From Paeniglutamicibacter quisquiliarum (GTDB taxonomy: Bacteria; Actinomycetota; Actinomycetes; Actinomycetales; Micrococcaceae), in contig NZ_JAHRED010000008.1 in the NCBI RefSeq assembly GCF_019084045.1, forward strand, positions 124,001 through 188,000: a DNA stretch of 64,000 bases, given 5' to 3'. Every line of letters starts with the position of its first letter. Position 1 is the stretch's first letter. Shown piece after piece: positions 28,917-50,363 of the stretch. A program made the position numbers and the translations under genes. The notes beneath the pieces are model-generated. The model did not search any database and was not told the DNA's origin. It saw only the letters and a list, made by a program, of their open reading frames with translations.

Positions 28917-29297
28917 CTAGTCCAGGTTTTTCACGTCCTGCACGGTGCGCGACAGCAGGCAGAATTCGTTGCCCTCGGGATCGCACAGGACGACCCAGCT
29001 GACTCCTTCGCCCTGGCCCACGTCCGTGCGCCTGGCACCCAGGGCAAGCAGGCGCTCGAGCTCCTCGGCGGTGGACAGGCCGTCCGCCCGCAGGTCGAAA
29101 TGCAGCCGGTTTTTCACGCCCTTGCCCTCGGGCACCGCGAACACATCGATGGAGGGCCATGCCTTGTCGCGCGGCGCGATGCTGATTCCGTCGCTGTCTT
29201 CGTCGACAATCTGCCAGTCGAGGACAGCGCACCAGAACTCGGCCACGACCCGTGGCCGGATCGCATCGATGGCAATGGCGGCTATGCGACTGGACAT
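28917..29297 (-). CDS. VOC-fold protein (glyoxalase/bleomycin-resistance-like)
   Basis: The protein is 126 residues from the ATG at 29297 (MSSRIAAIAIDAIRPRVVAE). The paired beta-alpha-beta-beta-beta pattern of the VOC superfamily is evident. Landmarks are FWCAVLDWQIVDEDSDGISI early and WVVLCDPEGNEFCLLSRT at the end, where E in GNEF is a usual metal ligand. Family members include glyoxalases, dioxygenases and drug-binding proteins; the substrate here is unknown. TACTGT lies six bases before the ATG, so the mRNA could be leaderless. A longer upstream frame exists but has biased composition. Confidence 0.85.
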   Translation of the reverse strand: MSSRIAAIAIDAIRPRVVAEFWCAVLDWQIVDEDSDGISIAPRDKAWPSIDVFAVPEGKGVKNRLHFDLRADGLSTAEELERLLALGARRTDVGQGEGVSWVVLCDPEGNEFCLLSRTVQDVKNLD

Positions 29298-29435
29298 GGG
29301 ACCACAGTAGACCATAAGGTGCGGCCCTGGGCAGACCCTCCGACTCAGGATTTTCCCCCAGGCCCGTGGCCACCTGCCGGCGGAGGGTGAGGGTTGCAGG
29401 CGTGGCAACGACGGCCCGCTACCGCGCGCCTGATG

Positions 29436-29924
29436 CTATGGCTTGGGAAGTTCCAGTGCGTACCTGTCCAACCCGCGCTGGTGGGATTTACGCTGGAAGC
29501 CGCGGCGGGTGAGAAGCCTGGACGAGGCCGTGTTGGCCGGGTCCACGCGGGCGAAGAGTTCCCGGGTTTCGTAGACCTCGGGGATCGTGGTCAGCGCTCC
29601 ATCGACCATGGCCCCGGCAATGCCGCGTCCCCAGCAATCCGGCGACACCCAGTATCCGATCTCGACGCCCTCCTCCGTGCGGGTGGACACCACGATGCCG
29701 ACTGGTTCGCCTGCCTCCTTCGCCAGGAACCAGCGGGAAGCTCCCGCGCGATGTGGCGGGTCCTGTCGCAGGGCTGCGCGGATGCGGTCCTGGGTGATTT
29801 GCCGGTCCCACGGCCGCCCGTCCCCGATGAAGCGGGTCACCCTCTCGTCGGAGGCCATGGAAGCGAAAAATGCCGCGTCGGCCTCCTGGAACGGCTGGAG
29901 GGTGATCGACGGGGTTTGCGGCAT
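29436..29924 (-). CDS. GNAT-family N-acetyltransferase (RimJ/RimL-like)
   Basis: The protein is 162 residues. The GNAT fold is shown by the N-terminal strand and helix (SITLQPFQEADAAFFASMAS), the acetyl-CoA loop in YWVSPDCWGRGIAGAMVDGA (with G-R-G-I-A) and the late strand ARVDPANTASSRLLTRRGF. The C-terminus ends LDRYALELPKP. It would acetylate an amine on a small molecule or protein N-terminus. It lies 149 bases downstream of the PheS-like gene in the same orientation, so cotranscription is possible. AAAGAG precedes the start at a short distance. Confidence 0.88.
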   Translation of the reverse strand: MPQTPSITLQPFQEADAAFFASMASDERVTRFIGDGRPWDRQITQDRIRAALRQDPPHRAGASRWFLAKEAGEPVGIVVSTRTEEGVEIGYWVSPDCWGRGIAGAMVDGALTTIPEVYETRELFARVDPANTASSRLLTRRGFQRKSHQRGLDRYALELPKP

Positions 29925-30073: not shown

Positions 30074-31192
30074 CTATTCCGCGATGAGCTCCATGACACT
30101 GCCCCGGTGGAGCGCCCTGTAGATGTCGTCGCGCATGAGGTTGGCCTCCAGGGCGGTGAGGGTCCTTTCGATTGGCCGGAGTGTTATGCGAACCAGGGCG
30201 TTGGCTTGCCCGGGGTCCAGCTGCAGTCGCTCCCGGGCCGCCTCGGGCAGGTCCTCGTAGTCGGTCAGCCCCAGCAACTCAACGGATTCCAGGTCATCCG
30301 ACCGGGTCCCCAGCGCCCGGCGGACTTCGTCGCCCAGGACTTCCTCGTCGAAGGATTTCGGGACGACGATGGAGATGTCGCGCCGGATCGAAGGAAGCAG
30401 CGAGACAGGTTGCCACGGTTCCAGATGGAGCATTTGGGATCCGATGCGCTGGTCCCGGGCGCGCAGCAGACGTATGTCCGGGATGCCCTTGCGCAGCATC
30501 AAGGCCCGGTCCAGGCCCATTCCCAGGGCAAGGCCCGACCACCGTTCCGGGTCGAGTCCCGCATCGGTGAACAAACGGGGCGCCATCATGCCGCATTCGG
30601 CAAGTTCCAACCATTCGCTTCCGACCAGGACATCCACTTGCATCCCCTTGGTCGTGTACGGGTGAACGGCCGGCACCGTGCGCCATTTGGCCCCGGGCAG
30701 GACCGCGTCGACAAGCACGGCGACCATCGATTCCAGGTCGTCCGGCGTCAGTGCGGTGGATGAAGATATCCGCCAGAGGTCAACCTGGTGGGGTGTGCCG
30801 ACGTGGGTACGGTCAATGGCGTCCCTGCGGTACACCAGTCCGGGCATGACCACCAGGTCGTCCATGGAGATGGATCGCGGTAGATTCCGCAACAGCGAGG
30901 GGACCGACGCCGAGGTGTGGCTCCTGAGCATGACCGAGGGGCTCACATATCGTGAATACCTTTGGTCGCGGGTCACCGTCGACGGGGCGAATCCCAGATT
31001 GTCGTAGTTGTCGGTGACCGAAACCAGCGGACTGTCTCGCACCATCCTGGCAGGCACGCCCCAACCATGGGCGAGAACGCTTGTGCATTGCCCCAGCAGC
31101 TCTTGCATGGCGTGCGGACCATGTGCAGGATCCGAGAGGTCGCGCAGTGTCAGGGCGTCGTGAAGTTCGTTCGCGGAGAGATACGTTGTCAT
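30074..31192 (-). CDS. Stand-alone PheS-like class II ligase with FDX-ACB-like C-terminus
   Basis: The protein is 372 residues. It has the catalytic signature of phenylalanyl-tRNA synthetase alpha subunits: LRSHTS (89-94), motif 2 YRRDAIDRTHVGTPHQVDLW (121-140) and motif 3 GMGLDRALMLRKGIPDIRLL (224-243). From about 258 to the end there is a domain like the ferredoxin-fold anticodon-binding domain that normally ends PheT (RRDISIVV, then LRPIERTLTALEANLMRDDI). No N-terminal coiled coil and no pheT gene are present. The layout resembles mitochondrial monomeric PheRS. It may belong to the family called PheS-related ligase SrmL in public annotation, which I cite from memory. A house-keeping PheST is presumably elsewhere. 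AAGGA lies six bases from the ATG, and a palindrome lies 88 bases upstream. Confidence 0.85.
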   Translation of the reverse strand: MTTYLSANELHDALTLRDLSDPAHGPHAMQELLGQCTSVLAHGWGVPARMVRDSPLVSVTDNYDNLGFAPSTVTRDQRYSRYVSPSVMLRSHTSASVPSLLRNLPRSISMDDLVVMPGLVYRRDAIDRTHVGTPHQVDLWRISSSTALTPDDLESMVAVLVDAVLPGAKWRTVPAVHPYTTKGMQVDVLVGSEWLELAECGMMAPRLFTDAGLDPERWSGLALGMGLDRALMLRKGIPDIRLLRARDQRIGSQMLHLEPWQPVSLLPSIRRDISIVVPKSFDEEVLGDEVRRALGTRSDDLESVELLGLTDYEDLPEAARERLQLDPGQANALVRITLRPIERTLTALEANLMRDDIYRALHRGSVMELIAE

Positions 31193-31548
31193 GGGAAGTC
31201 CTTGGTGGGGTTTGGATCGGTGAACAATCCCCCGATCCGCTCCGCCGCCAGGACTTAGGCGCGCGCCACGAAGCCCTCGCGACCGGTAACCGGTCGGGGG
31301 CTGGTAAATCGCTGTGGGGTACGCATATCGCCAAGGCTAACAGGCTGCCCGTCCCGGTCCAAGGAACACCTGGCCATGCGCTGAAGGCAAGCGCATGTGC
31401 GACGGTGTTTCCGTCCGGCCCGGCAAGTGGTGTCTTGGGCAGAGTCCGCGTCGGCAGTCGGTGGCTGCTGCGCGCGGCCATTTAGCGGGTCGGGGTCTGG
31501 TGCGCGAAGCACCGCCACGGGATCATTGCAACGGAGTAGGGTTGCAAC
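31193..31548. promoter_or_regulatory. Divergent intergenic region with a perfect 17-base palindrome
   Basis: This 356-base region separates the PheS-like gene from the divergent acetyltransferase gene. CGACCGGT-A-ACCGGTCG at 31280-31296 is a perfect dyad with a one-base centre, a typical form of a dimeric repressor site. It lies about 88 bases upstream of the PheS-like start. A -10-like TAGGGT for the acetyltransferase lies at 31537-31542. Nothing else in this stretch looks coding. Confidence 0.4.
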
Positions 31549-32097
31549 GTGCCCACATTGCAGCTCCTGCGAGCCGAACATTTTCCGGCCGTCCTGGCCT
31601 TTGAGCTGGCCAACCGCGCCTTCTTCGCTGCCCGGGTCCCCGACCGGGGCGATGCGTACTTCGAAGATTTCGACCACCGGCTCCAGACTTTGCTGGAGGA
31701 ACAAAACGCCGGAGACGGCGCCTTCTACCTGCTCGTCGACGGGGAAGGCCATGTCTTGGGGCGATTCAATCTGGAGTTCATTGGCGACGGCATTGCAGAA
31801 CTCGGCTACCGCGTCGCCGAACGGGAGACAGGACGGGGTGTGGCGACAGCCGCCGTTCGTGAAGTCTGCCGACTGGCAGCTGAATCGCATGGCCTACGCG
31901 CACTCAGGGCAGTTGCCGCCACCCGGAATCCGGCGTCCCGGAAAGTCCTGACCAAGGCAGGGTTCCTGGCCGCCGGCCAAGCCGACCCGGCAAGTCTCGA
32001 CGGTCAACCGGGAACCCGCTACTCGCTCGAACTAGGTCGAGCAGGACAGTTTGCCTTGGGTGACCCCACCCGTCCCGATTCCGGGCACAGCGCGTAG
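31549..32097 (+). CDS. GNAT-family N-acetyltransferase (RimJ/RimL-like)
   Basis: The protein is 182 residues from a GTG start (VPTLQLLRAEHFPAVLAFEL). A first half with LLVDGEGHVLGRFNLEFIGD leads to the acetyl-CoA loop ERETGRGVATAAVREVCRLA and the final strand LRAVAATRNPASRKVLTKAGF. TAGGGT ends six bases before the GTG and no Shine-Dalgarno is present, so the mRNA is probably leaderless. It is divergent from the PheS-like gene and differs in sequence from the other acetyltransferase at 29436. The substrate is unknown. Confidence 0.85.
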   Translation: MPTLQLLRAEHFPAVLAFELANRAFFAARVPDRGDAYFEDFDHRLQTLLEEQNAGDGAFYLLVDGEGHVLGRFNLEFIGDGIAELGYRVAERETGRGVATAAVREVCRLAAESHGLRALRAVAATRNPASRKVLTKAGFLAAGQADPASLDGQPGTRYSLELGRAGQFALGDPTRPDSGHSA

Positions 32098-49994: not shown

Positions 49995-49996
49995 TG

Positions 49997-50363
49997 TGGA
50001 GATGGGGAGAATTGAACTCCCGTCCGATGTGGTGTTGCCAGGTCTTCTCCGGGCGCAGTTTGCGTTGGAATTTCTCTGCCCCAGTCGTCATGCAAACAAG
50101 CGGCTGGTCCGGGCACAGTTACCTAAATTATGCGAGTTGTTCCGGTAACACTAACTTCCCGCAGTGGCTATCTAAATGACGTAAGGAACAGGGGCGATAG
50201 CATCCCCTGGCTTACGGACTGTCTGGCTGCTTAGGCAGCGAGAGCGAAGTCAGTGCGCTTTGAGTCGGCACTTATTGTTTTGCAAAGAGCGTTTACGAGA
50301 TAACTTTGCATCCTCGGCCCGCTTCACATGTCGCGACTCACACCGTCGAAACCGATCATCCCC
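49997..50363 (-). ncRNA. ssrA: Transfer-messenger RNA (tmRNA)
   Basis: The 5' end GGGGATG (50363 downward) pairs with CATCTCC near 49998-50004 to give the tRNA-like acceptor stem with one G-T pair. The T-arm GGACGGGAGTTCAATTCTCC precedes it. The reading frame for the tag begins at 50269 with GCC and ends with TAA at 50231-50233, giving ADSKRTDFALAA. The tag length and the ending ALAA match other actinobacterial tmRNAs, such as the mycobacterial tag ADSHQRDYALAA. After the discriminator A the DNA reads CA rather than CCA, so the full CCA tail must be completed after transcription. smpB lies 155 bases upstream on the same strand. Confidence 0.97.

Follow-up and report, generated by a model that had tools for sequence, protein, structure and literature searches.

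A single-chain phenylalanyl-tRNA synthetase-like protein, SrmL, with a conserved candidate attenuator leader and relatives in large phages

The srmL gene and its product

This analysis concerns srmL, an open reading frame (ORF) in a 64,000-nucleotide stretch of the Paeniglutamicibacter quisquiliarum genome (contig NZ_JAHRED010000008.1, positions 124,001 to 188,000; termed the window), and the short leader ORF that precedes it. The original prediction, made from the sequence alone, described a lone PheS-like ligase with class II motifs 2 and 3 and an LRSHTS pocket, an FDX-ACB-like tail in place of PheT, no N-terminal coiled coil and the architecture of the monomeric mitochondrial phenylalanyl-tRNA synthetase (PheRS), and gave SrmL as a family name. 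All of these points were borne out. The gene and the domains of its product are as follows.

30074..31192, minus strand: srmL, a single-chain PheRS-like ligase of 372 amino acids (ORF map; NF051887, 526.9 bits; cut-off, 300)
30434..31051, minus strand: class II PheRS catalytic domain, residues 48-253 (PF01409, E = 7.1e-33)
30104..30403, minus strand: FDX-ACB anticodon-binding-type domain, residues 264-363 (PF03147, hhalign to the PheT of the same genome, fold match to 3cmq)

The score against NF051887 places the protein in the NCBIfam family 'PheS-related mystery ligase SrmL', a curated family whose name states no function; the PheS of the same genome reached 142.5 bits with this model, below the cut-off. 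SrmL scored 98.2 bits with the bacterial PheS model TIGR00468 (cut-off, 237.45; own PheS, 299.3) and 118.7 bits with the mitochondrial PheRS model TIGR00469 (cut-off, 258.35). The match of the tail to PF03147 was 25.2 bits, below the Pfam cut-off of 31.1 bits, and the assignment was also backed by an hhalign alignment to the C terminus of the own PheT, from which ∼13 family-specific residues of SrmL (near 314-327) are missing. The chain contains these two Pfam domains and no PheT-type editing domain.

An AlphaFold2 model built from 29 sequences had a mean predicted local distance difference test score of 91.2 and exhibited neither a long N-terminal hairpin nor a coiled coil. Foldseek matched this model to human mitochondrial PheRS (3cmq; E = 1.2e-29, template modelling score 0.79, 405 columns) across both domains. 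All PheS chains among the matches listed ranked lower, and mitochondrial PheRS was the best match by fold and by profile. These analyses confirmed that the ORF is real and encodes a PheS-like core with an FDX-ACB tail in a single chain without a PheT partner. With mitochondrial PheRS (FARS2, TIGR00469), SrmL shares a single chain with a catalytic core and a C-terminal FDX-ACB domain, a layout supported by the predicted structure; it differs in an H-x-Y sequence in place of FPF, in scoring under the TIGR00469 cut-off and in its bacterial and phage hosts. With bacterial PheS/PheT it shares a homologous core and an FDX-ACB domain but lacks the coiled coil, the B3/4 and B5 domains, the FPF loop and the partner subunit.

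A normal PheRS coexists with SrmL, as is the case for auxiliary, resistant aminoacyl-tRNA synthetases (aaRSs). The genome contains an adjacent pheS-pheT pair on another contig, both genes scoring above their NCBIfam cut-offs and PheT having B3/4, B5 and FDX-ACB domains, while no PheT-sized neighbor of srmL was seen by eye in the ORF map from 24 to 38 kb. A single tRNA-Phe gene was detected among 57 tRNA matches (Rfam and ARAGORN), a pattern search for a second tRNA-Phe gave matches only in genomes of other families, and no Phe-rich leader was present in the 455 bases upstream of the own pheS. In a first tree, from which the ORF filter had removed 19 of 42 PheS loci, and in the rooted tree described below, SrmL formed one clade outside the sampled actinobacterial PheS. 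The gene is a paralog standing beside a normal pheST, as had been proposed; a position within normal PheS combined with the lack of a second pheST pair, which would have refuted the original reading, was not observed.

The LRSHTS pocket and the arginines of motifs 2 and 3 are retained in alignments. Among the 29 SrmL sequences, R122, R229 and Q136 are invariant and S94 nearly so, these being the motif 2/3 arginines and the serine and glutamine of the amino-group site; relative to the own PheS and that of Mycobacterium tuberculosis, the key arginine, Gln215 and Ser177 are unchanged (residue roles from the available part of PMC12447630). The pocket nevertheless departs from both PheS and mitochondrial PheRS at Q158R, E217D, F255H and F257Y (M. 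tuberculosis numbering), the last two being the change of the FPF loop to H-x-Y, and hence the amino acid used could differ from Phe. Charging of tRNA-Phe or another tRNA with a non-Phe amino acid would fit the five invariant pocket changes (R78, D138, W140, H177 and Y179), the family-specific insert in the FDX-ACB domain and the lack of an editing domain. We consider this improbable: in human cytosolic PheRS, Asn and Tyr occupy the FPF positions (PMC12447630), so FPF is dispensable for Phe and the change to H-x-Y leaves Phe possible, and phage members described below have the same pocket letters, are the sole strong PheS-type match in four of four records tested and in some cases lie behind Phe-rich leaders or beside tRNA-Phe.

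Paralogs of aaRSs that act on substrates other than tRNA, such as PoxA and HisZ, commonly lack an anticodon-binding domain. In SrmL this domain is present and has many invariant positions among the 29 sequences. A ligase with a small molecule, a carrier or a protein as acceptor of the amino acid would have precedents in PoxA, HisZ and the amino acid:carrier protein ligases (PMC9437257, available part), and no shared partner gene was seen for srmL. The retained anticodon-type domain, together with tRNA-Phe and aaRS neighborhoods in some phages, makes such a product very unlikely. Of the roles originally suggested, therefore, a second or resistance copy stands as one option; the unusual substrate and the non-tRNA product are less supported, given the anticodon-type domain, the tRNA-Phe or Phe-rich leader contexts in phages and the sole PheS-type match in four records.

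Distribution in cellular genomes

A strong match to SrmL (E ≤ 1.1e-63) was detected in 16 of 99 genomes of relatives, the own genome included, and in 9 of 15 within the genus; in these 99 genomes, SrmL was in pieces in two (G041 and G027) and at a contig end in another (G042). Among 396 genomes of the phylum, SrmL exceeded the cut-off in 2 and was split into two pieces in one more. A scan of named genomes confirmed 148 SrmL stretches, of which 80 were the loci analyzed here, all from Actinobacteria by title. Most copies were found on assembled contigs whose replicon type was not assigned. Families are intermixed in the SrmL tree, as gene transfer would give. The gene also decays, since copies with stops or in two reading pieces exist (G171:C9, L017, L019 and L091). 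Arthrobacter subterraneus NP_1H has two diverged copies (L067 and L126), each behind its own RFxxPRP leader.

A conserved leader ORF upstream of srmL

The sequence between srmL and the divergent upstream gene contains the following elements.

31255..31326, minus strand: leader ORF MRTPQRFTSPRPVTGREGFVARA followed by a stop, a short ORF with a near-start CGN-TTY
31306..31311, minus strand: proposed control codons CGA TTT (Arg6-Phe7)
31334..31339, minus strand: -10 box TAGCCT, transcription probably starting at or beside the leader ATG

The leader has the pattern M-x4-RF-x2-PRP. A strict fit to RFxxPRP was observed at 74 of the 80 loci, the six left out being L071 and L132, which have little upstream sequence, and L076, L091, L113 and L138. 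A looser test, for a near-start CGN-TTY in a short ORF, was passed by 75 of the 78 actinobacterial loci with at least 150 upstream bases (L071 and L132 fall below this length; L076, L091 and L112 were missed), and the codon pair was CGATTT in 72 of these 75. RF, encoded by CGA TTT, persists where PRP is replaced by PGP (L113), PRL (L138) or PW (a plasmid copy from Azotobacter, see below). Promoter and codon analyses were performed on 74 leaders, from 73 loci and the window, L112 being without an ATG, GTG or TTG start. The Arg codon was CGA in 96% (group-weighted), compared with 8.4% in ORFs of the same loci, and the Phe codon was TTT in 98% (group-weighted), compared with 10%. Codon positions 1 and 2 of R, F, P, R and P are conserved, while the wobble bases of P and R vary. 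The stop occurs at 18 codons in 49 of the 74; UAG stops were in excess (53/74 versus 26% in same-locus ORFs) and UGA stops were scarce (14/74 versus 64%). Of the 74 leaders, 66 have a TANNNT box at -12/-13 relative to their start and 71 have one at -12 to -15, a position indicating that the srmL leader mRNA is probably leaderless, with transcription starting at or next to the leader ATG.

The perfect palindrome noted in the original prediction is an inverted repeat within this putative regulatory leader but is not perfect, consisting of two 7-base arms around 3 bases (CGACCGG-TTA-CCGGTCG, 31280-31296). The only perfect palindrome of at least 10 bases seen in 31200-31400 was GGCGCGCGCC (31258-31267), also inside the leader.

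The pattern CGATTTN6CCYCGRCCG gave 30 matches in 29 genomes of an order-level set of 396, while a reversed control gave 3. By eye, a short ORF with a start codon close by was recognized at seven of the 30, each of them located before SrmL. The other 23 were taken as chance, and no leader upstream of a non-SrmL gene was found with this pattern, which would miss a looser leader before another gene. The SrmL leader had only chance-level matches in Rfam, none above a gathering score, and the four leader peptides tried had no NCBIfam match.

Pairing within the leader

Five segments were defined between the control codons and the srmL start.

31290..31303, minus strand: attenuator segment 1 (A); A:B, own-versus-swapped z = -5.9
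31271..31286, minus strand: attenuator segment 2 (B); B:C, z = -3.8 with narrow windows and -1.3 with wide windows
31248..31256, minus strand: attenuator segment 3 (C), anti-Shine-Dalgarno; C:E, z = -9.4; predicted fold
31229..31238, minus strand: segment D, complementary to A; A with the stretch holding C and D, z = -5.5
31196..31205, minus strand: segment 4 (E), containing the srmL Shine-Dalgarno sequence AAGGAC (predicted fold; pairing test)

Pairing of segments with their own partners was compared to that with swapped partners, using one sequence per group (n = 26 for wide windows; n = 25 for narrow windows). Support was obtained for A:B, for C:E and for A with the D-holding stretch; B:C was supported with narrow windows, which were chosen after the wide-window test had given the value listed above. 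B:E was marginal (z = -1.9, narrow windows), and A:C and A:E had no own-versus-swapped support. We favor the view that these pairings are arranged as in a 1:2/2:3/3:4 attenuator that would control translation by hiding the srmL ribosome-binding site. A pseudoknot of A:D (31290-31303 with 31229-31238) with C:E is possible.

SrmL in phages and viral contigs

A full-length SrmL homolog (40% identity) was detected in a 634-kb genome of a phage collection; the other matches listed from that collection look like ordinary PheS. Scans of IMG/VR yielded five further contigs of 181 to 578 kb, three loci that recurred between scans being counted once, giving six phage or viral copies, the records of which may be fragments; a viral scan with the protein of one copy (L229) as sole query found nothing. 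All six homologs exceeded the NF051887 cut-off of 300 (387-443 bits), and the phage proteins have the same pocket letters as cellular SrmL. In each of four records tested, SrmL was the only strong match to PF01409, one further match of 21 bits being present in the L231 record, and these four records had 49-71 tRNA matches each.

Two of the six copies are preceded by Phe-rich leaders with terminators: L229 (MNTNTTFNFFFSHKMV) and L238 (MNMLNKNNFSFFMFDFFGTQARGAILLKE). In truncated transcripts, the 5' arm of the terminator was paired away with a probability of 0.74-0.75 for ribosomes at the Phe codons versus 0.24-0.54 further on in L229, and of 0.95-0.99 versus 0.40-0.62 in L238. Proximity to tRNA-Phe was observed for two others. 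In L231, tRNA-Phe genes lie on both sides of SrmL; in L233, tRNA-Phe, two genes upstream, and then tRNA-Val precede SrmL. Part of this closeness is due to the array itself, as both loci hold 12 tRNAs. In one copy, L237, serS, a response-regulator-like ORF, a hisS-like gene and SrmL occur in succession. The hisS-like gene (L237:2348-2983, 211 amino acids) lies directly before SrmL and scored 150 bits with TIGR00442, under the cut-off. A Pnkp-like ORF in L235 (1907-3004; TIGR04075, 54 bits, under the cut-off) touches the SrmL start with its end.

In order to place these copies, a rooted tree was generated from 17 chosen of the 80 SrmL loci, 14 PheS loci as outgroup and the six phage rows, rows with stops being excluded from all trees. 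Phage SrmL formed a paraphyletic series within which cellular SrmL was one nested clade (100/99); the fork joining cellular SrmL to three phages had support of 94/99 and the next fork 88/94. This topology tentatively suggests transfer from phage to cell, the caution being due to the small number of phage rows (six), to the biased composition of three of these and to the length of the stems. Mitochondrial PheRS was represented by one partial row, whose placement says little.

SrmL on plasmids

Two full-length plasmid homologs passed the NF051887 cut-off (515 and 524 bits). An Azotobacter chroococcum plasmid encodes SrmL at 53% identity behind the leader MNNRSHRFSRPWVRSDQDRAARA, which contains CGA TTT and is followed by a terminator-like hairpin and a T run. 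In truncated transcripts of this leader, segment 2 paired with the 5' arm of the terminator for ribosomes up to P-site codon 13, CGA/UUU included, and this pairing was gone from codon 14 on. Plasmid pGnB68 of Glutamicibacter nicotianae (L228) carries SrmL and an intact standard leader beside a Cmx/CmrA chloramphenicol exporter gene, and in Corynebacterium diphtheriae FRC0402_p2 (L230) erm(X) and tet(65) flank a partial match that covers query residues 155-370. The other plasmid matches, among 40 of 58 records, had at most about 33% identity and look like ordinary PheS.

These phage and plasmid leaders bear on a different account of the actinobacterial leader, in which SrmL is a PheRS but RFxxPRP arrests its own ribosome as a nascent chain, responding to a drug or metabolite in the ribosome tunnel instead of to Phe-tRNA, a late stall opening the srmL start. 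The account would explain conservation of R, F, P, R and P at codon positions 1 and 2 with free P/R wobble, the A:D pairing, the stop at 18 codons and the location of two plasmid copies, one partial, near resistance genes, as well as the equilibrium opening of the Shine-Dalgarno sequence by late-leader ribosomes rather than by a UUU stall. PRP is, however, altered to PGP, PRL or PW where RF with CGA TTT stays, its codons lie within pairing segment A, which can account for their conservation, and two phage members have classical Phe-rich leaders. Initially preferred, the late-stall model was demoted because of the phage and Azotobacter leaders, and we now regard it as unlikely.

Proposed function and mechanism

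We propose that SrmL is a single-chain, mitochondrial-type PheRS that was captured from phages and serves in Actinobacteria as an auxiliary enzyme induced by a shortage of Phe-tRNA, a reading to which we assign a probability of about 0.7. It is the simplest account of a chain leading from phage to cell, namely Phe-rich attenuators, tRNA-Phe contexts, the same pocket letters and a fixed Phe codon. The catalytic core would make phenylalanyl adenylate, and the FDX-ACB tail would stand in for PheT by binding tRNA-Phe, the arrangement of mitochondrial PheRS. In this view, large phages would use SrmL as their own PheRS, while Actinobacteria and one Azotobacter plasmid would carry captured copies beside a normal PheST. 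The leaderless short ORF before srmL would sense Phe-tRNA: when this is short, a ribosome would halt with its P site on CGA and its A site on UUU, covering segment 1, such that segment 3, the anti-Shine-Dalgarno, would be taken up by segment 2 and leave the srmL start free; when it is ample, the ribosome would pass, 1:2 and 3:4 would form and srmL would be shut.

Several observations weigh against this proposal, in addition to the pocket departures and the wide-window result for B:C. In an equilibrium scan of ribosome positions on 25 sequences, a stall at UUU left the Shine-Dalgarno sequence closed, and only a ribosome at the leader end opened it; among 25 truncated transcripts, B:C pairing increased by >0.1 upon a stall in only 11 and decreased in 3. 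The leader of Actinobacteria and Azotobacter holds one Phe codon, which is little compared with classical leaders. The attenuator model explains neither the A:D complementarity nor the excess of TAG stops. The Azotobacter antiterminator also forms in the truncated transcript without a ribosome, and in the full transcript at equilibrium the terminator was formed with the ribosome at CGA/UUU (P = 0.97) but absent when no ribosome was placed (0.00) or when it had reached the stop codon (0.05-0.08); in the full L229 transcript it was formed at every ribosome position (P = 1.00). As equilibrium folding of full transcripts gives the wrong pattern for L229 and Azotobacter, the attenuation model needs kinetic folding. 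Finally, four of the six phage or viral copies had no tRNA-Phe in the fetched flanks, and in four a Phe-rich leader was absent from the 350-450 bases upstream.

As a whole, the arrangement most closely resembles that of the auxiliary TrpRS1 of Streptomyces coelicolor, which is reportedly indolmycin-resistant and subject to ribosome-mediated attenuation and which, like SrmL as proposed, is said to be a second, inducible aaRS of an actinobacterium with an attenuator. SrmL differs in being another enzyme with a single chain, in its leaderless ORF with one Phe codon and in the proposed control of translation, instead of transcription, in Actinobacteria. The mupirocin-insensitive IleRS2 is likewise an extra aaRS that can be plasmid-borne (PMC9437257, available part), differing from SrmL in that most SrmL copies are on contigs of unassigned replicon type. 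Huge phages carry aaRSs in genomes rich in tRNA genes (PMC7162821, available part), as do the phages with SrmL; the single-chain PheRS form and the Phe-rich leaders are described here.

The most speculative element is the benefit of SrmL, which might be resistance to PheRS inhibitors, a guess based on the TrpRS1 precedent and the two plasmid neighborhoods. That bacteria turned a phage PheRS into an inducible gene conferring resistance to some natural compound that targets PheRS, read by a one-codon CGA-UUU sensor on a leaderless mRNA, is a tentative and rather doubtful possibility. We are much less sure of an extension in which the mitochondrial single-chain PheRS may stem from the same phage-like lineage.

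With this reading, a curated 'mystery' family acquires a function that can be tested; if it is true, the family would be an auxiliary PheRS. SrmL would also exemplify the probable passage of a translation enzyme from phages into cells, and its leader is a conserved candidate attenuator without an Rfam match above the gathering score. Natural toxins of the soil may have PheRS among their targets, and engineering could make use of a PheRS that is small and has a single chain. The leader, the phage members and the tRNA-Phe and attenuator contexts are new beyond the NF051887 record. In open-access literature, nothing was found on 'PheS-related mystery ligase', the only match to 'SrmL' with 'ligase' was unrelated, searches on PheRS paralogs and on PheRS inhibitors or duplication gave no relevant or SrmL paper by title among those listed, those on leaders and attenuation gave, among the papers listed, none on the SrmL leader by title and start of abstract, and none joined 'huge phages' with 'phenylalanyl-tRNA synthetase'. 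There was no mention of 'phenylalan' in the available main text of PMC7162821, of 'PheRS' or 'phenylalanyl' in the available part of the aaRS-duplication review PMC9437257 or of pheS in that of PMC13236596. Our impression, from open-access searches alone, is that the function of SrmL and its leader are apparently unpublished.

Neighboring genes

Clustering of neighbors revealed no shared partner gene, as no family occurred in more than 8 of the 29 SrmL groups and the one that reached this number was far off. Pfam and NCBIfam searches on 95 of 160 chosen flanking ORFs found no shared family among the 25 commonest; PF00583 (GNAT) was present in 9 of the 95. In the window, srmL is flanked by ORFs at 28917-29408 (minus strand), 29436-29924 (minus strand) and 31549-32097 (plus strand), which encode a Glyoxalase_6 protein (PF18029, E = 1.1e-23) and two GNAT proteins, the last being the divergent acetyltransferase that had been predicted upstream. 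The domain match of the last of these genes and one separate feature of the window are as follows.

31549-32097, plus strand: GNAT acetyltransferase, divergent from srmL (PF13302, E = 2.6e-17)
49996-50363, minus strand: transfer-messenger RNA gene, tag ADSKRTDFALAA
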